Assembly (NCBI RefSeq): GCF_004364155.1
Contig: NZ_SOAZ01000024.1
Span: 1-50,195, forward strand
DNA length: 50,195 bases
Source of the DNA: Fonticella tunisiensis
GTDB taxonomy: Bacteria > Bacillota > Clostridia > Clostridiales > Caloramatoraceae
Direction of reading: 5' to 3'
Each line of letters begins with the position of its first letter. The stretch's first letter is position 1. The position numbers and the translations under genes were made by a program. Positions 3,976-50,191 of the stretch are shown one piece after another. The notes under the pieces are model-generated. The model was not told the origin of the DNA, made no database searches, and saw only the letters and a program-made list of their open reading frames with translations.

Positions 3976-6489
3976 ATGGAATCAAAAAACAGGACAAGTG
4001 AAAAAAATAGAAAAAAACATAAAAAGGGAATCGGCAAAGTTGTTTTACTGTCCTTTTTAATATTGTTCTTACTTGTTGGAGCAGCAGGGGCAGGTGTTTT
4101 AGTGGCTGTCATTAAATCGGCACCTGCAATCAATTACGACATAATTGATAATCTCAAGGAAAGCAGTAAAATATATGACAGCCAGGGTAATTTCATTGCC
4201 AACTACACCGATGGGGAAACGAGGAATATAGTTGATCTTAAGGATATACCAGAATATACCAAAAACGCATTTATAGCTATAGAAGATACAAGGTTTAAAA
4301 CCCATCACGGAATAGATATAAAGAGAATATTCGGCGCTCTCTGGGTTGATATAAAGACAATGTCACTCGCTGAAGGGGCATCAACCATAACCCAGCAGCT
4401 TATTAGAAACTATGCGCTTACTCTGGATAAAAATTGGACAAGAAAGCTTCAGGAGATGTATCTGGCAGTTCAGCTTGAAAGACATAAAACCAAGGATGAA
4501 ATACTAAACGCCTATCTCAACACAATACACCTTGGAGGAAACAAGTTTGGTGTACAGGCTGCCTCAAAGTTTTACTTTGGTAAAGATGTAAAAAATATAA
4601 CAATTGCTGAAAGCGCCCTTCTTGCAGCAATGCCAAAGGCACCTTCAAGACTATATCCATTCAGCGAAAAAAATATGAAGGATCCAACGGAATATGTCAC
4701 CCGCCAGAGACTTGTTTTAAGCAAGATGCTTGAGCAGGGCTTTATAACAAAGGAACAGTACGATGAGGCTCTTAAGGAGGATATAGTTGCAACAATCAAA
4801 TCACAGTATAACAAAAAAGAATCGGCAAGTTCCTCCATGAAATATCAATGGTTTATAGAACCTGCAATGGATCAGATTGCCCAGGATTTTGCTGATAAAT
4901 ATGGAATATCGAAGGCCGAAGCCATGCAAAGGCTCAGAACCCAGGGATACAGTATATATTTAACAATGGACACAAGAATCCAGCAAAGGGCTGAGGATGC
5001 CGTAAACAACTACAAAGGTTATCCTAAAATAAAGGTTGAATCAAAAAAGGTCAGCCCATATGACCCAAATATTGTAGAACCTCAGGCGGCCGGAGTCATC
5101 ATAGACGTAACAAACGGCGCCGTGAAGGCAGTTGTTGGAGGACGTGGGGATCATCCAGAAATGTCAACCAACAGAGCTACCCAGGTCCAGAGACAGCCTG
5201 GTTCAACAATCAAGCCCCTTGGGGTTTATGCTCCTGCAATAGAAACAGAAAAGGCTACAGCTGCAACACCGCTATATGATGCCCCCCTTCCAACAGAATT
5301 CTGGAAAGGTTATGGCTGGAAAACACAGCCTAAAAACTACGATGGTGCTTATGACGGCCTTATGACGCTAAGGCAGGCGATTACAAAATCTCAGAACATA
5401 CCTGCTATAAAGGTGTGGGATATGGTGGGATCAAATGTTTCAAGGGATTTCCTTATAAACAAGTTCCACCTGGGAAATCAGATTGCATCTTCAGATACAG
5501 GTCCCGCATCACTTGCTCTTGGAGGTTTAACAGAGGGTGTTACACCCCTTAGAATGGCTGCAGCCTACAGCGTTTTTGCAAACAACGGCATATACTCAGA
5601 ACCTATGTTTTATACGGTAGTTAAGGATAATAAAGGAAGTATCGTCCTTGAAAGAAAACCGGAACAGTCAAAGTCATTATCACCGCAGGCTGCATATATA
5701 ATGGTTGACCTTCTGGAATCCGTAGTTAAAAACGGTACAGGTAAGGCTGCAAACCTTGGTTCAATGCCAACAGCAGGAAAGACAGGAACCTCAAATGACT
5801 GGCAGAATGGATGGTTTGCCGGAATAACTCCATACTATGCAGGGGTTTTCTGGATAGGTCATGACGATCCAAATTTCTCATTTGACGGAAAGCATAATTC
5901 GTACAGCAAGCTTCAGGGTGCAACTGTTGCTCCTTTATGGAAGGAGGTAATGCTTGAAGCCCATAAGGGACTTCCCGTAAAGGACTTTAAAAGGCCATCT
6001 GGAATTGTAACTGCCCAGGTATGCCTTGATTCTGGAAATGCAGCAACTTCACTATGTTCCCAGGATCCAAGGGGAAACAGGGTTGTTTCAGATATATTCA
6101 TTAAGGGAACTGAGCCTGTTGAACTTTGCGATGTGCATACTACTGCGAAGATAGACATCAGAACCGGAAAACTTGCAAGACCTGATACTCCCGCTCAATT
6201 TGTGCAGGAAAAGGTGTTTATAAAGCCCTATCCAAATTCTATAATACTCGATAAGGATAAGCCATATATACTCCCCACCGAATACACCGACGCACCAAGC
6301 ACTGTTCCGCAGCCGCCAACGAATACCAACCCTCCTACCGGTACCGATAATACTGGAAACACCGGAAATACTGGCGGTGCAAACGATAATGGCAATACGA
6401 ACAATCCTAATAATAATGGCAGCGGCAGTAATGGCGGTAATAATAATGGGAATAATGGAAATAACGGAAATAACCACACAACCCCGTAG
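3976..6489 (+). CDS. Class A penicillin-binding protein (PBP1A family)
   Basis: This bifunctional enzyme polymerises and cross-links peptidoglycan at the outer membrane face. After a basic N-terminus and one membrane segment (about 20-45) comes a GT51 domain with EDTRFKTHHG at 103-112 (catalytic Glu103), GASTITQQL at 134-142, RKLQE at 156-160 and KDEILNAYLN at 173-182. The transpeptidase domain has the serine motif STIK at 410-413, SQN at 472-474 and KTG at 602-604. The 837-residue length is usual for clostridial PBP1A. The last about 60 residues are a low-complexity tail of N, G, T and P, probably extended into the wall. An AAGGAGG site precedes the ATG by 6 bases. Sub-family naming (ponA/pbp1A) is not attempted. 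Confidence 0.93.
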   Translation: MESKNRTSEKNRKKHKKGIGKVVLLSFLILFLLVGAAGAGVLVAVIKSAPAINYDIIDNLKESSKIYDSQGNFIANYTDGETRNIVDLKDIPEYTKNAFIAIEDTRFKTHHGIDIKRIFGALWVDIKTMSLAEGASTITQQLIRNYALTLDKNWTRKLQEMYLAVQLERHKTKDEILNAYLNTIHLGGNKFGVQAASKFYFGKDVKNITIAESALLAAMPKAPSRLYPFSEKNMKDPTEYVTRQRLVLSKMLEQGFITKEQYDEALKEDIVATIKSQYNKKESASSSMKYQWFIEPAMDQIAQDFADKYGISKAEAMQRLRTQGYSIYLTMDTRIQQRAEDAVNNYKGYPKIKVESKKVSPYDPNIVEPQAAGVIIDVTNGAVKAVVGGRGDHPEMSTNRATQVQRQPGSTIKPLGVYAPAIETEKATAATPLYDAPLPTEFWKGYGWKTQPKNYDGAYDGLMTLRQAITKSQNIPAIKVWDMVGSNVSRDFLINKFHLGNQIASSDTGPASLALGGLTEGVTPLRMAAAYSVFANNGIYSEPMFYTVVKDNKGSIVLERKPEQSKSLSPQAAYIMVDLLESVVKNGTGKAANLGSMPTAGKTGTSNDWQNGWFAGITPYYAGVFWIGHDDPNFSFDGKHNSYSKLQGATVAPLWKEVMLEAHKGLPVKDFKRPSGIVTAQVCLDSGNAATSLCSQDPRGNRVVSDIFIKGTEPVELCDVHTTAKIDIRTGKLARPDTPAQFVQEKVFIKPYPNSIILDKDKPYILPTEYTDAPSTVPQPPTNTNPPTGTDNTGNTGNTGGANDNGNTNNPNNNGSGSNGGNNNGNNGNNGNNHTTP

Positions 6490-6495
6490 CTTTTA

Positions 6496-6527
6496 AAAGG
6501 AATCGGTTCATCCGATTCCTTTACTTT
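6496..6527. terminator. Bidirectional terminator between PBP1A and spoVAEa
   Basis: An 11-bp perfect stem AAAGGAATCGG/CCGATTCCTTT with a 5-base loop lies 7 bases after the PBP stop and overlaps the spoVAEa stop codon. T-rich tails exist on both strands, so it can end both convergent transcripts. Confidence 0.85.
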
Positions 6528-7081
6528 TTCTCTTCATTTAACTTGATTATCTCTTTTAGAGCTTTAGTTATAATCGGCGCTCCGATTTCAATATCGTCAA
6601 ATCCATCCATCTTGCCTGGATCGCCTACGCCAACAATTACCGGCGCTTTTAAATCATTAAGAACATCCAGAGTGTCTCCCTTTATTATTCTCCCATCCCT
6701 GGAATTACCATGCTTATCCACCGCCTTTTCAATTATATTTCCATCCCGATCCACGGATAAATTGACCTTTACTCCCCTTACATGCTTTGTATTCGATGCT
6801 ACTGCAACTATGCCAAGCACTTCAACATCCGGGCTTTCAAGTATATATTCCATGGCTTTTTCCCCAGCGCCTTTATGGGTGTTACCCCTGTCATCTACCA
6901 TTACAACAACAGGATCATGCTTGGCCTCCTTTATAAGCTCTACTATCTTTTCACCTGAAAGGGGTGTAGGGTTTCCTGCAGAGCTTGAAATGCATCTTCC
7001 TCCAATGTTTTTTGCTGCAATCTCTACAGCCTTTTGAGCTATTGTATCTCCATCTGTAACAAGTATAACATTTCGCTTCAT
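6521..7081 (-). CDS. spoVAE: Stage V sporulation protein AE, soluble form (SpoVAEa)
   Basis: This 186-residue soluble protein matches the SpoVAEa type found at the end of spoVA operons; it is not essential for dipicolinic acid (DPA) movement in Bacillus and its role is unclear. The N-terminus MKRNVILVTDGD and the strings VVMVDDRGNTHKGAGEKA and VGVGDPGKMDGFDD are typical. It has no signal peptide or membrane segment. The gene lies 12 bases downstream of the spoVAEb stop codon and ends within the bidirectional terminator at 6496-6527, so it is the last gene of the spoVA operon. Confidence 0.87.
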   Translation of the reverse strand: MKRNVILVTDGDTIAQKAVEIAAKNIGGRCISSSAGNPTPLSGEKIVELIKEAKHDPVVVMVDDRGNTHKGAGEKAMEYILESPDVEVLGIVAVASNTKHVRGVKVNLSVDRDGNIIEKAVDKHGNSRDGRIIKGDTLDVLNDLKAPVIVGVGDPGKMDGFDDIEIGAPIITKALKEIIKLNEEKK

Positions 7082-35172: not shown

Positions 35173-36084
35173 TTAAAATCCTTCATTCAAACTTGCCTTT
35201 TCTTCCTCAGAAAGTATTGGCTTTAAACCAAGATTATGTGATACCCTATCCTCTTCTGGAGGAAGCTGCATGTAGTCCCCAAACATTATCTTCAAATACT
35301 CATCGTAATTTCCTGGAGCAAAAAACTCACCATCCTCGAATTTGATGGTTGTTAAAGGATACACCACATCCTTTGGCACTTTAAAGTTCCAAAACAAGGC
35401 ATCCGGACTATAAACAAGAAGATTACCCCCTTTATGTGAAAATCTCGATAATATATTATCCCTTTTATTGAATAAATATTTAAAAACCCTCTCCCTTCCC
35501 ATAAGAGTTATGGGAAATCCAAGAACCTTTAATCCCAACTTGGCAAAATTTCTCGTAAGCGTCTTTGTATTTGTAACCTTCTCAAAGGGTTCATTTATTA
35601 AGGTCATCGTTCTATAAATATTTTTAAAGTTTCTCTTAATCTTAACATATTCATCGTAATCACCTGAAAAGTCATCCACAGGAAATATATCAATAAACAT
35701 GCCGCGATGATATTTTCCGGGTTTATATTCAACAATCATGCTGTTTCTATCTCTTATCTTAATCCAGGGCATGTCGTAGTAAAGGTCAGTTTTATAATAT
35801 TGAAAAAACAAATCCTTAGGAAGCTCCTCTTTCCCTATCTCAATAAACCTGTTATAATCATCCCTGTGCATTACAATATCCACATCATCATCCCAGGGTA
35901 TAAATCCTCCATGCCTTACAGCTCCAAGCAAAGTCCCAGCATCCAGCCAGTATTCAATATTATGCTTTCTGCATATATAATCAACTATCTTTAAAATTCT
36001 AAGCATAACAAGCTGGGATTGCCTTAAAACATATTCCCCCTCATGTCTATTGTCTGGAAATTGTTCTAAATCACGCTCTATCAT
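35173..36084 (-). CDS. LicD family phosphotransferase (copy 1)
   Basis: The 303-residue protein carries the LicD signature WLDAGTLLGAVRHGGFIPWD with DDDVDI (about residues 46-70). LicD proteins transfer phosphocholine, and in related families other phospho-groups, from a CDP carrier to glycans such as teichoic acid. It overlaps the second copy by 4 bases, and the two are clear paralogues (shared ILKIVDYICRKHNI run). The nearby licA, eutH-type and licC genes supply a likely donor. Confidence 0.9.
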   Translation of the reverse strand: MIERDLEQFPDNRHEGEYVLRQSQLVMLRILKIVDYICRKHNIEYWLDAGTLLGAVRHGGFIPWDDDVDIVMHRDDYNRFIEIGKEELPKDLFFQYYKTDLYYDMPWIKIRDRNSMIVEYKPGKYHRGMFIDIFPVDDFSGDYDEYVKIKRNFKNIYRTMTLINEPFEKVTNTKTLTRNFAKLGLKVLGFPITLMGRERVFKYLFNKRDNILSRFSHKGGNLLVYSPDALFWNFKVPKDVVYPLTTIKFEDGEFFAPGNYDEYLKIMFGDYMQLPPEEDRVSHNLGLKPILSEEEKASLNEGF

Positions 36085-37031
36085 AAATCAATCTCCCCTT
36101 TATTATAGTAAAATCCCTTGTTTATTTTCCTTACTTCCTCCTCAGGCAATATAGTTTTAATCATCTTGTTGTGATATACCCTTTTGCTTTCCGGAGGCAG
36201 CTGCATATAGTCATCACCAAAAAATACCCTTAAAACATAGTCAACATCGTTAGGCACTAAAAACTCCCCGTCCTCAAACTTCATCGTTTTAAGAGGAAAT
36301 ATCTTCTCCGCTTTAAACACCTTGTCCCAGTTAAGTACATCAGTTCCATACCCATAATTTATTTTTGGATTTTTATCCATTCTCTTGATTCTCTTATCCC
36401 TCGTTTTAAGATTAAGCTTATATATAACATCCTTATTAAATATTGCAAACACAAAGAAAACCATCTTCAGTAATAGCTTTATAGCATTTATAACCGCATT
36501 TTTCCCCTTAAAATACGGCTTTTTCAGTGGAGCATTTATAGCATATACATTTATATATAAAAGCTTGTACAACTTTTCAATAAAAACCCTTCTAAAGGGG
36601 TTGCTTGAGTAGCTGTCATATGGAAATATATCTATATACAGACCCGGATGCTGATTCTCCTGTCCCCAAATAACTATTTTGCTCTTCCTATCCTTTATTT
36701 GCGTCCAGGTATTTCCGGCATACTCTGTCGTATCAAGGTTTTCAACGAAAAGGTCATCCGGCAACTCATCCTTTGCAATACTTAAAAATCTATTGTAATC
36801 CTCCCTTGTCATACCGATATCTATATCATCATCCCAGGGTATAAACCCCCCGTGTCTTACAGCACCAAGCAAAGTTCCGCTTTCAAGCCAGTAACTAATA
36901 TTATGCTTTCTGCATATATAATCAACTATCTTTAAAATTCTAAGAATTATAAGCTGCGCCTGTCTTAGTGTCGGCTCACTTTCATACTCTCTTCTTCTGT
37001 CTGGAAATATCTCGCTTAAATTTTTTTTCAT
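36081..37031 (-). CDS. LicD family phosphotransferase (copy 2)
   Basis: This 316-residue LicD protein has WLESGTLLGAVRHGGFIPWD and DDDIDI at about 48-72. It is a paralogue of the downstream copy, with a longer, more hydrophobic middle (about 180-205, including LLLKMVFFVFAIF). Two LicD proteins in pneumococcus (LicD1, LicD2) act on different sugars of one repeat unit, and a similar division of labour is possible here. It overlaps the flippase gene upstream by 4 bases. Confidence 0.9.
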   Translation of the reverse strand: MKKNLSEIFPDRRREYESEPTLRQAQLIILRILKIVDYICRKHNISYWLESGTLLGAVRHGGFIPWDDDIDIGMTREDYNRFLSIAKDELPDDLFVENLDTTEYAGNTWTQIKDRKSKIVIWGQENQHPGLYIDIFPYDSYSSNPFRRVFIEKLYKLLYINVYAINAPLKKPYFKGKNAVINAIKLLLKMVFFVFAIFNKDVIYKLNLKTRDKRIKRMDKNPKINYGYGTDVLNWDKVFKAEKIFPLKTMKFEDGEFLVPNDVDYVLRVFFGDDYMQLPPESKRVYHNKMIKTILPEEEVRKINKGFYYNKGEIDL

Positions 37032-41455: not shown

Positions 41456-41640
41456 GTACCATAAATAAACTCATGGAGTTTATCCTTATTTACCTCTAAG
41501 TTTGGAACTAAAACTGCCATTCCGTTTATATTCTGGCTTGAAAATAAACCATCCACTGATAGTCTAAACTAGCCAATCTGCTTGTATTAAACTTGGATAC
41601 ATCTCCAACCTTATCAATTGCTTACTCCTTTCAAAAATGC
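41449..41640 (-). pseudogene. 3' remnant of an LCP (LytR-CpsA-Psr) family gene
   Basis: Reading the minus strand in two frames gives SKFNTSR and then NINGMAVLVPNLEVNKDKL with HEFIYGTK and a stop. This matches the last about 50 residues of the intact LCP protein at 48986-49969 (AAKFNTSS, NINGMAVLVPDIEANKDKL, HEFIYGEK). One base is missing relative to the intact gene soon after SKFNTS, which shifts the frame and creates an early stop. The two DNA copies are clearly related but far from identical, so this is an old paralogue remnant. Nothing of the catalytic domain remains. The rest of 41641-41755 and 41260-41424 shows no gene. Confidence 0.8.
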
Positions 41641-41755: not shown

Positions 41756-42448
41756 TTAAACATTTTTTCCAAGTATATAATTTTCAGCCTTCTTAAGATC
41801 CTCAAGAGAATCAATTTCAAACCAATCATTTGAATCTATTTTTTTAATATAAACTCTTACATCCCCTAAAATTGTTCCTACTACATCATCCCAGTATACC
41901 CTGTCAAAGTTTCCACCTTCAACTACTTCCTCAAGTTTTTTCCTGATAACCTGTCCATCCTGCCTGGTCCAATAGGAAATACCTGACATAATATAGTCTG
42001 TACCTCCACCTACTTCTATCTCGAATACTCTCCCATCTTCATCGAAGTGAAGCTTCCATTCGGATTCAAATCCTTCCTTTATACCTCCAAAGTATGTGGA
42101 GTTTTCCAAATGATTTTCAAAATAGTTTCTACACATATATACATCTGCCTCAGTAACATAGGCATCTTCAAGATATTCCCTTACTAAATACATAGTATAT
42201 ACATTGTTATAAACGTCATACTTATCATTATGAATAAGCTTAACTCCGTATCTTTCCCTTAAATATTCAAACTTTTCCTTAAGGTACCCTGTAACCACAA
42301 TAATATCATCTATGCCCTTTTCCTTTAAAAATCTTATTTGCCTTTCAGCCATTGGCTCTCCAGCAACCTTAACCAGGGATTTGGGAGTGTCATATGTAAG
42401 GGGCCTAAGCCTTGTTCCCATTCCTGCTGCCAAAATAATAGCTCTCAT
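41756..42448 (-). CDS. licC: CTP:phosphocholine (or phosphoethanolamine) cytidylyltransferase LicC
   Basis: The 230-residue protein begins MRAIILAAGMGTRLRPLT with the intact nucleotide loop GMGTR at 9-13 and continues PKSLVKVAGEPM, GYLKEKFEYLRERYGV, FGGI and SGISYWT. It is close to pneumococcal LicC (229 residues), which makes CDP-choline from phosphocholine and CTP. Whether the base is choline or ethanolamine cannot be told. It has its own promoter with an inverted repeat (42614-42649) and lies downstream of the winged-helix fusion gene in the lic module. Confidence 0.88.
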   Translation of the reverse strand: MRAIILAAGMGTRLRPLTYDTPKSLVKVAGEPMAERQIRFLKEKGIDDIIVVTGYLKEKFEYLRERYGVKLIHNDKYDVYNNVYTMYLVREYLEDAYVTEADVYMCRNYFENHLENSTYFGGIKEGFESEWKLHFDEDGRVFEIEVGGGTDYIMSGISYWTRQDGQVIRKKLEEVVEGGNFDRVYWDDVVGTILGDVRVYIKKIDSNDWFEIDSLEDLKKAENYILGKNV

Positions 42449-42706: not shown

Positions 42707-43678
42707 TCACTTGTGTTTTTCCCTATTTTCCAACATCGGAAAAATAAAGTTTACAAGATTACTGTAATGCCACTGGGTGTCGATTTCGGTCCATATGAGA
42801 TCTTCTATTTTTGCATAACCTATGTTGTAGGTTCTCGCCACATCCAAAAGTACATACTCATAATTTAAATAGGGATTGCTGTTTCCCGAAAATTCTTCAA
42901 GCATCTTTTTATATATGTCAATTGAAATTTTACTTATGCCTATCATCTCACCATCTATTTTGTTAAACTGATGTTTATCCTTTGACATTTTAAAAATAAA
43001 GGTATTTCGTATTTCAACAAATACCTCATCCCCTGATCCACTTACACTACTAATTAAAACACAATCCCTGTTTTCGTTTTTAAGAACTTCACCAATTGCC
43101 CTCTTTTCAAATACTATATCACTTTCAATTAATATAAAATCATCTTTAATCAAATCCTTTGCCGCAGCAAGGGATGTCATTGTTCCCGTGGATTTATACT
43201 TTCTATTTTTTACAAGGCTTATTTTTCTTTCCTTTGCAAGCTTTTCATAGTAGTGGCTTTCATAACCCGCAACAACTATAATATTCTCTATTCCATATTC
43301 CTCAAGTATGTCAAGTATTCTTTCGATTATAGTTTTCCTCCCAAGCGGAAGAAACCCTACAGGTTTATCAAAATTTGGACTTTCTCCCGCAGCAAGTACA
43401 ACTGCAGTATTAACTTTTTTATCATGCTTAGGAATTATGATTTTTTTGTTTATTGCTCCGTTTATATGCTCCTCAAGGGCATCCAAACCCTTTTTATTTA
43501 CAACGTATCTGGATTTACGCGAGTGTTTATCAATGCTTATATAACCATCCTCCACCAGATGCTTTATTATTGAATTAACATTACCGATAGAAATATCCGC
43601 AGCCGCTGCAATACTTCTTTGGCTTATTCCACTATTTCTGTTTAATATCTCTAAAACCCTCAACTCTTTATCCAGCAT
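42707..43678 (-). CDS. Winged-helix regulator fused to a LicC/PntC-like nucleotidyltransferase domain
   Basis: The 323-residue protein has an N-terminal winged helix-turn-helix (about 1-70; SQRSIAAAADISIGNVNSII as recognition segment) and a nucleotidyltransferase-fold domain from about 90 to the end, with NRKYKSTGTMTSLAAA, LIESDIVFEKRAI, GDEVFVEI and GEMIGISKIS, as in phosphocholine and aminoethylphosphonate cytidylyltransferases. The glycine-arginine nucleotide loop found in LicC (GMGTR) is replaced by AAGESPNFDKPVGFL, so catalysis is doubtful. I infer a ligand-sensing regulator. Its own promoter carries an 18-bp-armed palindrome, and a core of that site recurs before licA. Confidence 0.8.
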   Translation of the reverse strand: MLDKELRVLEILNRNSGISQRSIAAAADISIGNVNSIIKHLVEDGYISIDKHSRKSRYVVNKKGLDALEEHINGAINKKIIIPKHDKKVNTAVVLAAGESPNFDKPVGFLPLGRKTIIERILDILEEYGIENIIVVAGYESHYYEKLAKERKISLVKNRKYKSTGTMTSLAAAKDLIKDDFILIESDIVFEKRAIGEVLKNENRDCVLISSVSGSGDEVFVEIRNTFIFKMSKDKHQFNKIDGEMIGISKISIDIYKKMLEEFSGNSNPYLNYEYVLLDVARTYNIGYAKIEDLIWTEIDTQWHYSNLVNFIFPMLENREKHK

Positions 43679-43699: not shown

Positions 43700-43740
43700 A
43701 CAATAAGGATATGTTCAAATAATGAACATATCCTTATTGT
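43700..43740. promoter_or_regulatory. Large palindromic operator over the fusion-gene promoter
   Basis: Two perfect 18-base arms (43700-43717 and 43723-43740) flank 5 bases. The centre is GTTCA-N5-TGAAC, the same as at 46094-46108 before licA. The right edge overlaps the -10 box. No T run follows on the minus strand, so a terminator for the eutH gene is less likely than an operator, though an RNA hairpin cannot be excluded. Confidence 0.75.
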
Positions 43741-43764
43741 ACCAATTTCAAAACCATAGTTCAA
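43736..43764 (-). promoter_or_regulatory. Promoter of the winged-helix fusion gene
   Basis: On the minus strand TTGAAC at 43759-43764, a 17-base spacer and TACAAT at 43736-43741 lie about 60 bases before the ATG. The palindrome at 43700-43740 begins inside the -10 box, an arrangement that fits autorepression. Confidence 0.7.
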
Positions 43765-43812
43765 TATATTCTTTCAATATATTGTTTTTTGACTAAAAAT
43801 TATTTTTAAACC

Positions 43813-45036
43813 TTACAAGCTTGTATTTGCACATTCCTCAAGCTTATCCTGCTTTTCAAGAGCTACAGCCTTTGGAACGGATAGCTTTAAAGCGATACCA
43901 ACAGCTATAATTCCGGCAGTCAGCTTACCTATCATAACAGGTAAAATCATTGTCGGCTGAAAGTTTGCTGTAAAGGCAAGGTGATCTCCTATCAGGAAGG
44001 CTGAACATACCGAGAAGGCAATAGTCTTAACCTTATCAGCTGCAGGCATGTCCTTTATTATTCTAAAAAGGGCTAATATGTTTGCTGCTCCGGCTAAAAT
44101 CCCTGCACTTCCAATTGAACTAAATCCTAACCTTTTGCCAATAGCTTCGAGGGGCTTTGAAAGATACTTCTTAATGAGATACACCATTGGGAATGCACCT
44201 GCAAGCATAATACCTATATAACCGGCAATCTCAAGTGCTCTAAACTGATCCTGAGCATCTGCAATTATCGGATTGAATCCCCAGGCTCCAAATATCTTTG
44301 TAAAGACTCCTGTAAAGTACTCAACTATTGAAAATACAAGTATTATTTTTATTGCAGCGTCCATAATCTTTCCAAACCATATAAAGCCCTTAACCATTTT
44401 GTCGGGTATAAGCCATAGTCCCAATGCAATAAGTATACAAATCACAATAAGAGGCAGAAGATTTGATAAAATTTGCCCAAATCCCAGTGCAAGCTGATAG
44501 GTAGCCTCAGCATCTGTACTTATCACTCCACGTACGCTTGCCTTAGACAGGGATAAAATAGCACTAGTCACAAATACTCCTATTGGCACTGTAAGTATTC
44601 CCGACATAACCCCAAGTGCCATATATTTATGATCCTTTTTATCAATCATTGCAAGCCCTACAGGAATGCTAAATACTATTGTAGCCCCAGCCATATAGCC
44701 TGTTACCATTGCCATAATCCAGCTCTCCTTCGTATCCGCAAGGGCCTCGGCAAGCTGATATCCGCCCATGTCAACGGCGATAAAGGTTGTAGCTGCTATG
44801 GCGGGGTCTGCCCCCACAGCACTAAAGGCAGGACCGAATATTGCCTTAACAAAGCTTGCTAAATAAGGTGTTGCCGCCATTATACCCGCAACGGGAACGA
44901 AGATTGGACCTATTGAAAAAAGGCCCTCAAGAAATTCTCTGCCAAGTTCGGATTCATCATTTATAATTGAAGCAAATGCTCCCAAAACTGCACACGCCAT
45001 AATAACATATAGTACATAATTACCAAACTGAGCCAT
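43813..45036 (-). CDS. eutH: EutH-type ethanolamine permease
   Basis: The 407-residue integral membrane protein has about ten or eleven hydrophobic segments. Strings such as AGIMAATPYLASFVKAIFGP, FIAVDMGGYQLAEALADTKE and the C-terminal FSVCSAFLIGDHLAFTANFQ are characteristic of EutH, the ethanolamine permease of eut operons. No eut catabolic genes are present. Instead it follows licA by 37 bases, in the place where lic loci usually carry the choline permease LicB. It may import ethanolamine, or a related amine, for glycan decoration. GAGGT precedes the ATG. Confidence 0.87.
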   Translation of the reverse strand: MAQFGNYVLYVIMACAVLGAFASIINDESELGREFLEGLFSIGPIFVPVAGIMAATPYLASFVKAIFGPAFSAVGADPAIAATTFIAVDMGGYQLAEALADTKESWIMAMVTGYMAGATIVFSIPVGLAMIDKKDHKYMALGVMSGILTVPIGVFVTSAILSLSKASVRGVISTDAEATYQLALGFGQILSNLLPLIVICILIALGLWLIPDKMVKGFIWFGKIMDAAIKIILVFSIVEYFTGVFTKIFGAWGFNPIIADAQDQFRALEIAGYIGIMLAGAFPMVYLIKKYLSKPLEAIGKRLGFSSIGSAGILAGAANILALFRIIKDMPAADKVKTIAFSVCSAFLIGDHLAFTANFQPTMILPVMIGKLTAGIIAVGIALKLSVPKAVALEKQDKLEECANTSL

Positions 45037-45073
45037 ATTACTTTACCTCACATTATTTTTTATTTAAATCATT

Positions 45074-46054
45074 TTAAAATGCAGCCGCTTCGGCTTCAGC
45101 ATCAAAGTAAACCCTTTTCTGTGAATCATTTTTAACAGCTTCCAGGTATTTTTGGAAGTTTTCGCTTTTAATAAGTTTTTTGAATCTTTCATATCTTCCC
45201 ATAGCATATGGCCAATAATCATTCTCATGTTTTCCATATACAATTTGTACTATGGCCCATACGGTCCAGTAGGCATCTATTAAAACCTTGTTTATTACCA
45301 TTCTTCCAAAATTGGCAGCAGTAACATACCCATCAAAGTATTCCCTCATCATCATGTATTCCTGGTGTTCTGTAAGTCCTGCTTCTATTGAAAAGGCCCC
45401 AAGATCCCACATTGGGTCATTCATTCCTGAATACTCCCAGTCTATAAGATACAACTTTTTGCTGTCTGAAATGAAATTTTCACATAAAGGGTCATTGTGG
45501 CTTGGTACAAGCTTTACCGGTTTGTCTTTTATTACCTTCCTGATAATCTCCAGGTCTTTATAGGTCTCAGCGTAATCATCAGGAAGCCTTGCATTATTTC
45601 TTTTTAATATATCATCATAAAGATCAATACCGTCAAAGGCATCAAAGGTGAATTTAAACTCCTCACCGATAGAGTGCAATTTCTTAAGTACCTTAGTGGC
45701 CTCAACTACGAGTTCATCCTTTACAAAGCTTTCAGGATGCATAGTCACAGCATTTTCAATATATTTTGTCAAAGCAATTCCTGTTTTCTCATCAAAATAT
45801 ATAATCTCTGTATTTATACCATTTCTTGATGTTATATTAGCATTATGCATCTCAACACTTCTGTCTATGTAGAGACTTGTACCTTCCCCTGGAATCCTCA
45901 AAACATAATTTTCTTCGCCAAGGGTTATTTTATAGTTTCTGTTTGTTAGTCCTCCCAATAGTTGTTCAATAAATGTAATCTCATCAACTCTATTTTTAAG
46001 TATGTCAATTTTCTCAATAGCGTTAAACACTTCCTGCGGCAGGTTTTTAATCAT
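45074..46054 (-). CDS. licA: LicA-type choline/ethanolamine kinase
   Basis: The 326-residue kinase has a nucleotide-binding N-lobe with LGGLTNRNYKI at 33-43, the catalytic HNDPLCENF at 186-194 and IDWEYSGMNDPMWDLG at 204-219, the choline/ethanolamine kinase signature. It phosphorylates the imported amine with ATP. Length agrees with LicA. A GGGGGATGG site precedes the ATG. It is the first gene of the licA-eutH unit, and the putative operator GTTCA-N5-TGAAC lies 40 bases upstream. The substrate (choline or ethanolamine) is not resolved. Confidence 0.88.
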   Translation of the reverse strand: MIKNLPQEVFNAIEKIDILKNRVDEITFIEQLLGGLTNRNYKITLGEENYVLRIPGEGTSLYIDRSVEMHNANITSRNGINTEIIYFDEKTGIALTKYIENAVTMHPESFVKDELVVEATKVLKKLHSIGEEFKFTFDAFDGIDLYDDILKRNNARLPDDYAETYKDLEIIRKVIKDKPVKLVPSHNDPLCENFISDSKKLYLIDWEYSGMNDPMWDLGAFSIEAGLTEHQEYMMMREYFDGYVTAANFGRMVINKVLIDAYWTVWAIVQIVYGKHENDYWPYAMGRYERFKKLIKSENFQKYLEAVKNDSQKRVYFDAEAEAAAF

Positions 46055-46093
46055 TTTACCATCCCCCTTTGCTCTATATTATAATTATATTCC

Positions 46094-46108
46094 GTTCATT
46101 TTTTGAAC
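46094..46108. promoter_or_regulatory. Putative operator before licA
   Basis: The perfect inverted repeat GTTCA-N5-TGAAC lies 40 bases before the licA start, just upstream of two overlapping TATAAT-like -10 boxes (near 46076-46090). The same core and spacing sit at the centre of the palindrome before the winged-helix fusion gene, including the preceding TAT on the coding strand. Confidence 0.65.
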
Positions 46109-46162
46109 ATAACTTAATTTTAATATTATTTTTACAAAAAAGCAACACATAAAATAAGGTTT

Positions 46163-46189
46163 CAGAGATTTCGCATCTAATTTCCAGTA
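46163..46189. repeat. Internal partial copy of the window-end repeat
   Basis: These 27 bases are identical to 50101-50127 and in the same orientation. They are followed at once by GGAAAT, so the loop of the full element appears deleted. The copy separates the licA promoter from the cytidylyltransferase remnant. Confidence 0.75.
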
Positions 46190-46199
46190 GGAAATAATA

Positions 46200-46404
46200 T
46201 TTTGATGTAAATTTGATATTTTTCAACATCTTTAAAATTTTGTAATCAACCAAACCACAGGTGATTTTGGATACACTAATGTCTGTCAAAACTTTCAAGA
46301 GCTTGTATGATAAGCGGCTTTCCATACACAACAACTAATTGCTTTGGCTTGTCAACCACACCCATTCTTATACCGGTGCCTCCGGCTAGAATCAACAAAA
46401 CATG
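46200..46404 (-). pseudogene. Remnant of a TarI/IspD-like cytidylyltransferase
   Basis: On the minus strand a frame reads HVLLILAGGTGIRMG, DKPKQLVVVYGKPLII and QALESFDRH before a stop at 46276-46278. The next frame then continues ISVSKITCGLVDYKILKM. This is the start of a cytidylyltransferase of the TarI (ribitol-5-phosphate) or IspD type: nucleotide loop, PKQ, then the KI-x-x-V segment. There is no usable start codon, one frameshift, and nothing after about 65 residues. Its place between licA and the SpoIID gene suggests that a teichoic-acid-type gene was lost here. The rest of 46055-46486 holds the licA operator, the partial repeat and a terminator. Confidence 0.7.
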
Positions 46405-46462
46405 TCAAATTATGTAACCCTAATTAAATATATAGTGGGAATATTATGGAATAGATATTCAT

Positions 46463-48961: not shown

Positions 48962-48986
48962 CAAAAAAACAGGGCTTAAAAGCCCT
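48962..48986 (-). terminator. Terminator of the lcp gene
   Basis: The stem AGGGCT/AGCCCT overlaps the stop codon and is followed on the minus strand by GTTTTTTTGT. Confidence 0.82.
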
Positions 48987-49969
48987 TATTTCTCTCCATA
49001 TATAAACTCATGCAGTTTATCCTTATTAGCTTCAATATCCGGAACTAAAACAGCCATTCCATTTATGTTCTGACTCTTAAAATAGCCATCAACTGGCAGC
49101 CTAAACTGCTCAATGCTGCTTGTATTAAACTTTGCTGCCTCCATTGCAAGATCGATTATCTCCTTATTAGAAAGGCTTGTTTCTATATATGGAATAAGTT
49201 CCGAAACCAGCCCTGGTATCTTAGCTGTTCCCTGAGCCTTTATTTTCTGGAAAAGCTGATTTAAAACCTCTCTCTGCCTTTCAGTTCTTTCATAATCACC
49301 GCGGCCTACATATCTAATTCTTGAGTATGCAACAGCTTGTCTACCATTTAGCACCTGAATTCCTGGCTTTACACCTTTAACTACATTTCCATTAAGTCTA
49401 TTTAATTCTGCCAAATATCCATTTACATATGTTGCTTCAGCTTCAGATATATTAATTTTTACACCACCAACCTTATCAATAAGTTTTTCAAGTCCAAAAA
49501 AATCAATAGTCACATAATCCCTTATATCTAGTCCAAAATTTGAGTTTATCGTTTTAACTGCAAGTGCCGGGCCCCCGAATGCATAGGCTGCATTTATCCT
49601 GTTGTTTCCTTTACCCGGTATGGGAACATACATATCTCGCATAAGGGATGTCATTTTAACCTTCTGGTTTGTCTTATCAATGGAAACAACTATAATGCTA
49701 TCGGATCTCGAACTTTCACTTGTTTGATTTCTTCTATCAAGTCCGAAAAATACTATATTAATTATATTGCTATCTTTATTTTCTGCAGCCTCAGGCTGTA
49801 TTCCAAGTTCCTCATTAGTCTTAGGCAACTCCTTTCTTTGAAGCCTTCCAAAGAAAGTGTAGTACCCGTAAGCAGCTGAGCCCACGATCATTGCCAATAT
49901 AATCGTCAAAACTATAAGAACTTTGTTTCTCTTATTCTTTTTATTCCTTTTCCTTCGTCGCTCGCTCAT
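48986..49969 (-). CDS. LytR-CpsA-Psr (LCP) family glycopolymer ligase
   Basis: The 327-residue protein has a very basic N-terminus, a membrane anchor (about 17-40) and an LCP domain with SSRSDSIIVVSID (about 86-98), RDMYVPIPGKGNNRINAAYA (111-130) and SRIRYVGRGDYERTERQ, whose Asp and Arg residues bind the polyprenyl pyrophosphate. LCP enzymes move finished teichoic acid or capsule from the lipid carrier to peptidoglycan. Its position at the head of the glycan locus suits that role. AGGAGG precedes the ATG. A broken 3' paralogue lies at 41449-41640. Confidence 0.93.
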   Translation of the reverse strand: MSERRRKRNKKNKRNKVLIVLTIILAMIVGSAAYGYYTFFGRLQRKELPKTNEELGIQPEAAENKDSNIINIVFFGLDRRNQTSESSRSDSIIVVSIDKTNQKVKMTSLMRDMYVPIPGKGNNRINAAYAFGGPALAVKTINSNFGLDIRDYVTIDFFGLEKLIDKVGGVKINISEAEATYVNGYLAELNRLNGNVVKGVKPGIQVLNGRQAVAYSRIRYVGRGDYERTERQREVLNQLFQKIKAQGTAKIPGLVSELIPYIETSLSNKEIIDLAMEAAKFNTSSIEQFRLPVDGYFKSQNINGMAVLVPDIEANKDKLHEFIYGEK

Positions 49970-50100: not shown

Positions 50101-50191
50101 CAGAGATTTCGCATCTAATTTCCAGTAAAGCTTTTTTCTTTATAGGAAATTAGATTTTTTCTATTTTATTGAAATTTTGGAAGGGAAAAAG
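50101..50191. repeat. Dispersed repeat at right window edge
   Basis: These bases are the exact reverse complement of 1-91. The inverted repeat ATCTAATTTCC/GGAAATTAGAT flanks an A/T-rich loop. It is followed by only four more bases in this window. Confidence 0.85.

Follow-up and report, generated by a model that had tools for sequence, protein, structure and literature searches.

A conserved palindrome as predicted operator of a winged-helix protein with a degenerate cytidylyltransferase domain at the licA-eutH locus of Fonticella tunisiensis

In a 50,195-bp stretch of Fonticella tunisiensis DNA (contig NZ_SOAZ01000024.1, positions 1 to 50,195; this whole stretch is called the window), the palindrome GTTCA-N5-TGAAC stands both upstream of licA-eutH and at the promoter of a gene that fuses a winged helix to a nucleotidyltransferase domain (fusion gene). 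The order on the minus strand is licA, eutH, fusion gene, licC-type gene and O-antigen ligase-type gene, with two LicD-family genes further on (Table 1). The palindrome is very probably the operator of the winged helix-turn-helix (wHTH)-nucleotidyltransferase protein, a predicted dimeric auto-repressor that would also control licA-eutH, whose products would import and activate ethanolamine or choline for surface glycans, and use a pseudo-cytidylyltransferase domain as sensor. An earlier note on this DNA had described the same core with the same spacing twice and an 18-bp-armed palindrome starting in the -10 box of the fusion gene; both descriptions hold, as the two cores are exact, the arms are fully complementary, and the -10 box overlaps the palindrome end.

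The window by itself gives weak evidence, at least two matches at one mismatch being obtained also in 22 of 100 shuffles. Relatives of the fusion gene were collected by scanning genome contigs with peptide patterns of the nucleotidyltransferase domain, blind to the DNA site. This gave 50 loci, or 51 with the window, and up to 250 bp upstream of each of the 51 genes were examined. The operator core was found without mismatch upstream of 30, with at most one mismatch upstream of 47, and with at most two upstream of 49 of the 51 genes; the corresponding shuffle means were 0, 0.2, and 4.9 loci, and control stretches within the same 51 genes gave 0, 1, and 8. Only L060, a homologue from C. mediterraneense that lacks the winged helix, and L065 (see below) lay beyond two mismatches. 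Nine other palindromes of the same form yielded no exact and 0 to 1 one-mismatch loci at the 51 genes; three of them, being two bases away from the motif, reached 31 to 32 loci once two mismatches were allowed. The loci carry the labels Clostridium, Romboutsia, Terrisporobacter, Peptostreptococcus, Caloramator, Lachnospiraceae, Turicibacter (a metagenome-assembled genome), Bacillus, Cytobacillus, and Abiotrophia, among others, and since they span Clostridium to Bacillus and Abiotrophia, conservation is not confined to one clade. The earlier note had proposed to look for absence of the site upstream of orthologues, or for a scatter regardless of lic genes; the outcome favours its reading.

To place the operator relative to transcription, the highest-scoring sigma-A-type promoter was chosen for each site within a span reaching from 90 bp upstream to 70 bp downstream, all starts being predicted. 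The operator centre fell at +7 to +9 in 40 of 48 loci and at +3, +10, +11, +12, +15, +15, +43, and +47 in the remaining eight; this count leaves out L039, with an upstream stretch of 38 nt, as well as L060 and L065, which are not in the site table. Judged by the predicted starts, the fusion gene has the operator overlapping its promoter or immediately behind it, a feature of autoregulated repressors. A repressor bound just downstream of the -10 box blocks initiation. At licA, nearly equal scores were obtained for a downstream promoter, TTCAAA-18-TATAAT (6.8), and for TTGCTT-17-TAAAAT (6.7), and a simpler consensus scan gave the downstream one alone. We prefer TTGCTT-17-TAAAAT as the probable licA promoter because the resulting operator position of +9 matches the fusion gene and most homologous loci. 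The earlier assignment of licA -10 boxes downstream of the site is for the same reason probably wrong.

Domain searches with the fusion protein identified a winged helix (HTH_24, 45.2 bits at a cut-off of 21.9, 6.9e-12; MarR, 28.5 bits at a cut-off of 24.6) and a nucleotidyltransferase domain (Pfam NTP_transf_3, 1.3e-12). In 49 of the 50 other loci, a LicA-type kinase match follows the nucleotidyltransferase, and in 47 of them the open frame measured from the match start comprises 597 to 628 codons; by these matches, the relatives are mostly triple fusions of winged helix, nucleotidyltransferase, and choline kinase, whereas licA is a separate gene in the window. In many relatives, the place of EutH is taken by an EamA-family permease encoded near the fusion gene: the order fusion gene, EamA permease, licC-type gene occurs in 20 of 50 loci, and in another group the licC-type gene comes next with the EamA gene further on. 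We take these EamA permeases to be LicB-like.

The closest sequence to the nucleotidyltransferase domain is PntC of Treponema denticola (6pd1, E 3.5e-48; LicC, 2e-12). An AlphaFold2 model of the fusion protein (predicted local distance difference test score of 90) gave the same answer, with PntC 6pd1 as best structural match (Z 34.8, root mean square deviation 1.3 over 232 residues) and a Z of 24.5 for LicC. A LicC-like identity of the domain was therefore rejected, both the PDB and the fold searches placing it clearly closer to PntC. According to PMC6697681, Lys25 of PntC is credited with stabilising the transition state, and Glu104 and Glu196 point towards the amine of 2-aminoethylphosphonate (AEP). 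These two glutamates align with E185 and E274 of the window protein, and each is kept in 50 of the 51 proteins. Compared with PntC, the fusion protein has six residues fewer in the loop that bears the GxGSR signature, and the signature Arg together with the Lys of the PKG motif is missing in 50 of the 51 proteins, including the window protein and L060, and kept only in L065. By alignment, the pocket retains its amine end but not its catalytic end. Because of this loss, the domain is better read, from alignment and model, as a pseudoenzyme sensor than as an enzyme. The earlier description of the protein as a fusion of winged helix and nucleotidyltransferase stands as far as the domains are concerned, with the refinement that the nucleotidyltransferase has lost catalytic residues.

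It is unlikely that the nucleotidyltransferase is still active and that the protein is a trigger enzyme like BirA or NadR, which would sense through catalysis. The fold is intact by its match to PntC, the metal Asp is kept in 43 and the Trp in 51 of the 51 proteins, and 11 of 50 loci, some of them short contigs, showed no licC-type gene in the stretch retrieved, all of which would suit an active enzyme. The shortened loop and the missing Arg and transition-state Lys argue against it, as does the separate licC-type gene that 39 of 50 loci have in the stretch retrieved.

The one protein with an intact signature, L065 (Clostridiaceae bacterium 14S0207; 6001-6924), consists of a winged helix and a PntC domain and has no kinase. 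It may be a different protein, because its domain is catalytically intact; perhaps it represents an intermediate or an earlier stage in the origin of the regulator. No further intact wHTH-PntC protein of this kind was found among 398 genomes of the phylum, four of which matched, namely the window's own and three with PntC-like matches without winged helix; the loci of these three have no exact site.

The distribution of the site follows that of the fusion gene. Of 21 genomes with the fusion gene that were searched, 20 contain GTTCAWWWWWTGAAC (44 sites versus 12 for the control), a fraction that is partly by construction, as 18 of the 20 genomes besides the window's own had been chosen for an exact site at the fusion gene. 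A fairer set comprised 68 genomes of one Clostridium genus, 28 of which carry the winged-helix fusion; a 29th (G284) has only a homologue without winged helix. The site was present in 27 of the 28 fusion genomes (85 sites in 131 Mb, control 49) and in 12 of the other 40 (15 sites in 126 Mb, control 16), the latter being chance level. The two sets overlap: G405/G411, G441/G415, G487/G410, G437/G416, and G443/G424 are each the same genome, as judged by equal coordinates.

Individual sites were then read in context, 78 in fusion genomes (55 among the matches listed and 23 in 15 regions of the 21-genome set) and 9 of the 15 in fusion-less genomes. A promoter of at least 4 bits placing the operator at +7/+8 was present at 67 of the 78 sites versus 0 of 9, and at 177 of 3300 random and 54 of 781 intergenic-like positions; the +7/+8 range and the 4-bit threshold were set after the survey of the 48 fusion-gene loci. 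With the downstream gene taken on the strand with the better promoter, a gene of the reference set followed 64 of the 78 sites. The downstream genes encode a PntC-type nucleotidyltransferase (20 sites), a methyltransferase of about 186 aa (18), a UgpB-like ATP-binding cassette (ABC) solute-binding protein (10), an EamA permease (8), an ABC permease (3), a PhnT2-like ABC ATPase (2, two sites at one gene), and an OpuA/ProV-type ATPase (1). The fusion gene itself follows two sites, most fusion-gene sites having been left out of the 78; ten downstream genes are unassigned, and four sites have none. Six of the ten unassigned genes are one permease, 86 to 97% identical to L133 and TauC-like, although the copy scanned stays below the NCBIfam cut-off; another one is PhnD-like, again below cut-off.

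Most sites read in fusion genomes thus precede permease or ABC transporter genes, the methyltransferase gene, or a 2-aminoethylphosphonate operon. In L090, the one operon read in detail, the PntC gene is followed by genes for phosphoenolpyruvate (PEP) mutase, phosphonopyruvate decarboxylase, and AEP transaminase, each above cut-off. The 68 genomes contain 22 stand-alone PntC-like genes, and an exact site lies within about 183 bp of the match start in 20 of the 21 assessed (G478 was left out). Judged by these targets, the same site appears to serve the relatives, which occur in many Clostridium-like and some Bacillus-like bacteria, in the control of a wider choline and phosphonate gene set. The earlier proposal of a dedicated circuit for phospho-amine decoration of a glycan is supported, but it is too narrow for the relatives, whose circuit reaches beyond the module.

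The S-adenosylmethionine (SAM) methyltransferase (e.g. L090 8328-8888 and L098 3158-3715) gave nothing beyond SAM methyltransferase in searches of Pfam, NCBIfam (E 1e-20), and PDB sequences; as a guess, it is a candidate N-methyltransferase of the ethanolamine or aminoethylphosphonate head group. Two single sites were also observed. In G453 one operator (L166 1503) precedes the gene of a 476-aa protein that we take to be a PHP-type phosphoesterase, with head-group release from diesters as a possible role. In Bacillus sp. cl95, a second site (L088 3108) lies at the start of an ABC permease gene beside a choline-binding-repeat protein and is without the usual promoter geometry.

The operator was compared with the recognition helix in 49 proteins, L060 and L065 being absent from the site table. 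Three of the four invariant winged-helix residues, S30, G32, and N35, lie in or just before helix 31-43; the fourth is Q20. Val at residue 37 is found in exactly the 10 proteins with CGAAC in place of TGAAC (10 of 10 versus 0 of 39), and Tyr at residue 36 accompanies an altered outer operator base (5 of 6 versus 4 of 43), each variant mostly belonging to one clade. One instance outside the Bacillus group is G438 (Clostridium), with Tyr at 36 and changed outer bases. The association is taken as supporting evidence only. Homologues without winged helix occur in two genomes: G284 has no exact site in its genome and at best four mismatches upstream of the gene, and in C. mediterraneense the best match upstream of the homologue has three. 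Both genomes have no other homologue, and the two proteins are only 59% identical, so that they count as two cases.

Could the site belong to another regulator, encoded elsewhere and controlling lic and phosphonate genes including the fusion gene, while the winged helix binds something else? Binding of the fusion protein is a prediction, and some sites stand before genes remote from the fusion gene. We nevertheless consider such a regulator improbable, given the site upstream of the fusion gene itself in 49 of 51 loci, the control-level counts in fusion-less genomes, the clade-confounded covariation of operator and helix, and the absence of the site at the homologue in the two genomes that lack the winged helix. 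The same four observations support, at the level of sequence comparison, the inference of the earlier note that the fusion protein regulates its own and the licA promoter.

An RNA hairpin in the 5' leader, acting as attenuator or stability element instead of a DNA operator, is still less probable. Most of the perfect 18-bp stem at the fusion gene would be transcribed; however, nearly all information of the aligned sites lies within the 15-bp core, with values near zero outside, and the distance from operator to predicted start is nearly fixed, whereas that to the next gene start varies from a few bp to more than 250 bp. The hairpin was rejected on these two grounds. A chance coincidence of two common AT-rich palindromes, with which the shuffle result and the any-spacer count in the whole genome of F. 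tunisiensis (3,103,119 bases; four copies of GTTCAN5TGAAC, equal to the reversed control) would agree, was rejected as extremely improbable, the site being conserved upstream of homologues across several families.

Several observations weigh against a fusion-protein regulon as proposed here. Loci within one clade are not independent, and each variant in the helix-operator association comes mostly from a single clade. The promoter of licA is ambiguous, and the sensor assignment is drawn from sequence and a model. The reversed control, too, is denser in fusion genomes (49 in 131 Mb versus 16 in 126 Mb), so part of the site excess there reflects base composition. L065 has no site near its gene or in its genome despite its winged helix; G438 has the winged-helix fusion but no exact site, only two-mismatch variants upstream of both copies; and C. 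mediterraneense has one exact site far from its homologue, without promoter geometry. Finally, the genome to which the window belongs shows no wide regulon. GTTCAN5TGAAC with a 5-bp A/T spacer has exactly two copies there, both at the window sites (control 0). The 11 one-mismatch sites seem to be there by chance, with a total of 13 matches versus 16 for the control; ten lie inside long open frames, among them the one with the best promoter score (L198, 9.0, within a 469-codon frame), and the remaining one (L196) has a promoter score of only 3.3. Further regulon members in this genome were rejected accordingly. PEP mutase gave no match in the genome at E 1e-20, in a search that had no positive control and hence shows little.

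Among known systems, NrtR and NadR are the nearest working analogues; the fusion protein is a member of neither. According to PMC6800001, the Nudix domain of NrtR is catalytically inactive in M. smegmatis, ADP-ribose releases NrtR from DNA, and NrtR is an auto-repressor. The likeness lies in an enzyme domain fused to a DNA-binding domain and in the sensing of a pathway metabolite. The difference lies in the enzyme family (Nudix versus cytidylyltransferase), the pathway, and the absence of a kinase domain from NrtR; Pfam finds NTP_transf_3 and no Nudix domain in the fusion protein. NadR of enteric bacteria is described in PMC7221760 as combining the functions of a repressor, a nucleotidyltransferase, and a kinase in a single protein that acts on pathway and transport genes. 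It resembles the fusion family in having repressor, nucleotidyltransferase, and kinase on one chain, the kinase being present in the relatives. The domains are unrelated, however: nicotinamide mononucleotide (NMN) adenylyltransferase and ribosylnicotinamide kinase domains were not found, NTP_transf_3 and, in relatives, a LicA-type kinase standing in their place, and the NMN adenylyltransferase of NadR is active, whereas the nucleotidyltransferase here appears dead.

PntC-AEPT of T. denticola (6pd1/6pd2) is the closest protein in sequence and structure and is likewise a PntC fused to another domain, but it is an active enzyme with GxGSR and Lys25, and its partner is an aminotransferase; it is not known to have a DNA-binding domain. 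LicC and LicA of Streptococcus pneumoniae represent the same pathway type, a kinase and a cytidine triphosphate (CTP):phosphocholine cytidylyltransferase that serve surface decoration, of which LicA- and LicC-type genes are present in the window. They are separate enzymes not known to carry a winged helix, and the titles and abstract openings listed by searches of the open-access literature name no such regulator. MarR/HTH_24 regulators share the N-terminal wHTH and a palindromic operator at the predicted start, but the ligand domain of the fusion protein has a cytidylyltransferase fold.

We propose that the wHTH-nucleotidyltransferase protein would sit as a dimer on GTTCA-N5-TGAAC just downstream of the -10 box and block transcription of its own gene and of licA-eutH, and in relatives of head-group supply genes. 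This proposal starts from what was computed, that is, the conserved operator, its position at +7 to +9, the co-occurrence, the pathway-linked targets in relatives, and the loss of catalytic residues. The nucleotidyltransferase domain would have descended from a PntC/LicC-type cytidylyltransferase that lost the catalytic Arg and Lys. Since the amine-facing Glu pair is kept, the domain probably reports the level of a phospho-amine head group or of its cytidine diphosphate form, which would tune supply to demand; the ligand may be phosphoethanolamine in F. tunisiensis and phosphocholine or aminoethylphosphonate elsewhere. We infer binding, dimer formation, and repression as well as the ligand and the direction of its effect, for which feedback co-repression is a guess.

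Table 1. Positions of the operator sites, predicted promoters, and genes discussed in the window
Feature	Position	Strand	Remark
Operator GTTCA-N5-TGAAC at the fusion gene's own promoter	43713..43727		exact; centre at about +9
Operator GTTCA-N5-TGAAC upstream of licA-eutH	46094..46108		exact
Perfect palindrome with operator core at its centre	43700..43740		two 18-nt arms, 100% complementary, 5 nt apart
Predicted sigma-A promoter of fusion gene, TTGAAC-17-TACAAT	43736..43764	-	
Candidate licA promoter, TTGCTT-17-TAAAAT	46117..46145	-	operator at +9; chosen by geometry of homologous loci
Alternative licA promoter, TTCAAA-18-TATAAT	46078..46107	-	overlaps operator
Fusion gene: winged helix (about residues 1-77) and PntC-like pseudo-cytidylyltransferase domain (about 88-321)	42707..43678	-	predicted repressor/sensor
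licA, choline/ethanolamine kinase	45074..46054	-	Choline_kinase 4e-24
eutH, ethanolamine permease	43813..45036	-	EutH 8.5e-127; NF011668 above cut-off
licC-type gene, separate cytidylyltransferase	41756..42448	-	intact GxGTRLRPLT...PK signature
LicD-family gene 1	36081..37031	-	LicD 3e-45; presumed user of activated head group
LicD-family gene 2	35173..36084	-	LicD 9.6e-45

The position of eutH beside a separate licA in the window would point to ethanolamine rather than choline. Further features of the locus were noted by eye. Upstream of licA, 46275-46415 (minus strand) is a decayed gene remnant, reading LAGGTGIRMG...KPKQL and then ending early; it presumably comes from the N-terminal part of an IspD/TarI-like nucleotidyltransferase. 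A direct repeat of 26 bases, AGAGATTTCGCATCTAATTTCCAGTA, occurs at 46164-46189, also upstream of licA, and at 50102-50127 near the window end. Beside the licC-type gene, 41500-41600 resembles a remnant of the C-terminal part (about 49040-49140) of gene 48986-49969, as if from a duplication; we take that gene to be LytR-CpsA-Psr-like.

Phosphocholine, phosphoethanolamine, and aminoethylphosphonate at the surface matter for host contact and cell-wall function. The titles and abstract openings listed by searches of the open-access literature gave no account of how head-group supply is controlled in these bacteria, and no description of a regulator of the kind predicted here. What the analysis provides is a predicted regulator with a name, its 15-bp operator, the promoter position that this operator takes, and targets that can be tested; the C-O-P branch (choline/ethanolamine) and the C-P branch (phosphonate) are joined in one predicted regulon. 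The protein appears to be a clear example of a pathway enzyme that became a sensor, with the catalytically intact relative L065 as a possible intermediate. A broader picture, for and against which we see the balance as roughly even, is that of a one-component regulator family with members in several families of Firmicutes. Its sensor would be a dead aminoethylphosphonate/phosphocholine cytidylyltransferase, mostly with a choline kinase on the same chain. Such a regulator would measure the activated head-group pool and decide between choline/ethanolamine salvage and the synthesis or import of the phosphonate analogue, and the methyltransferase would be a further regulated step.

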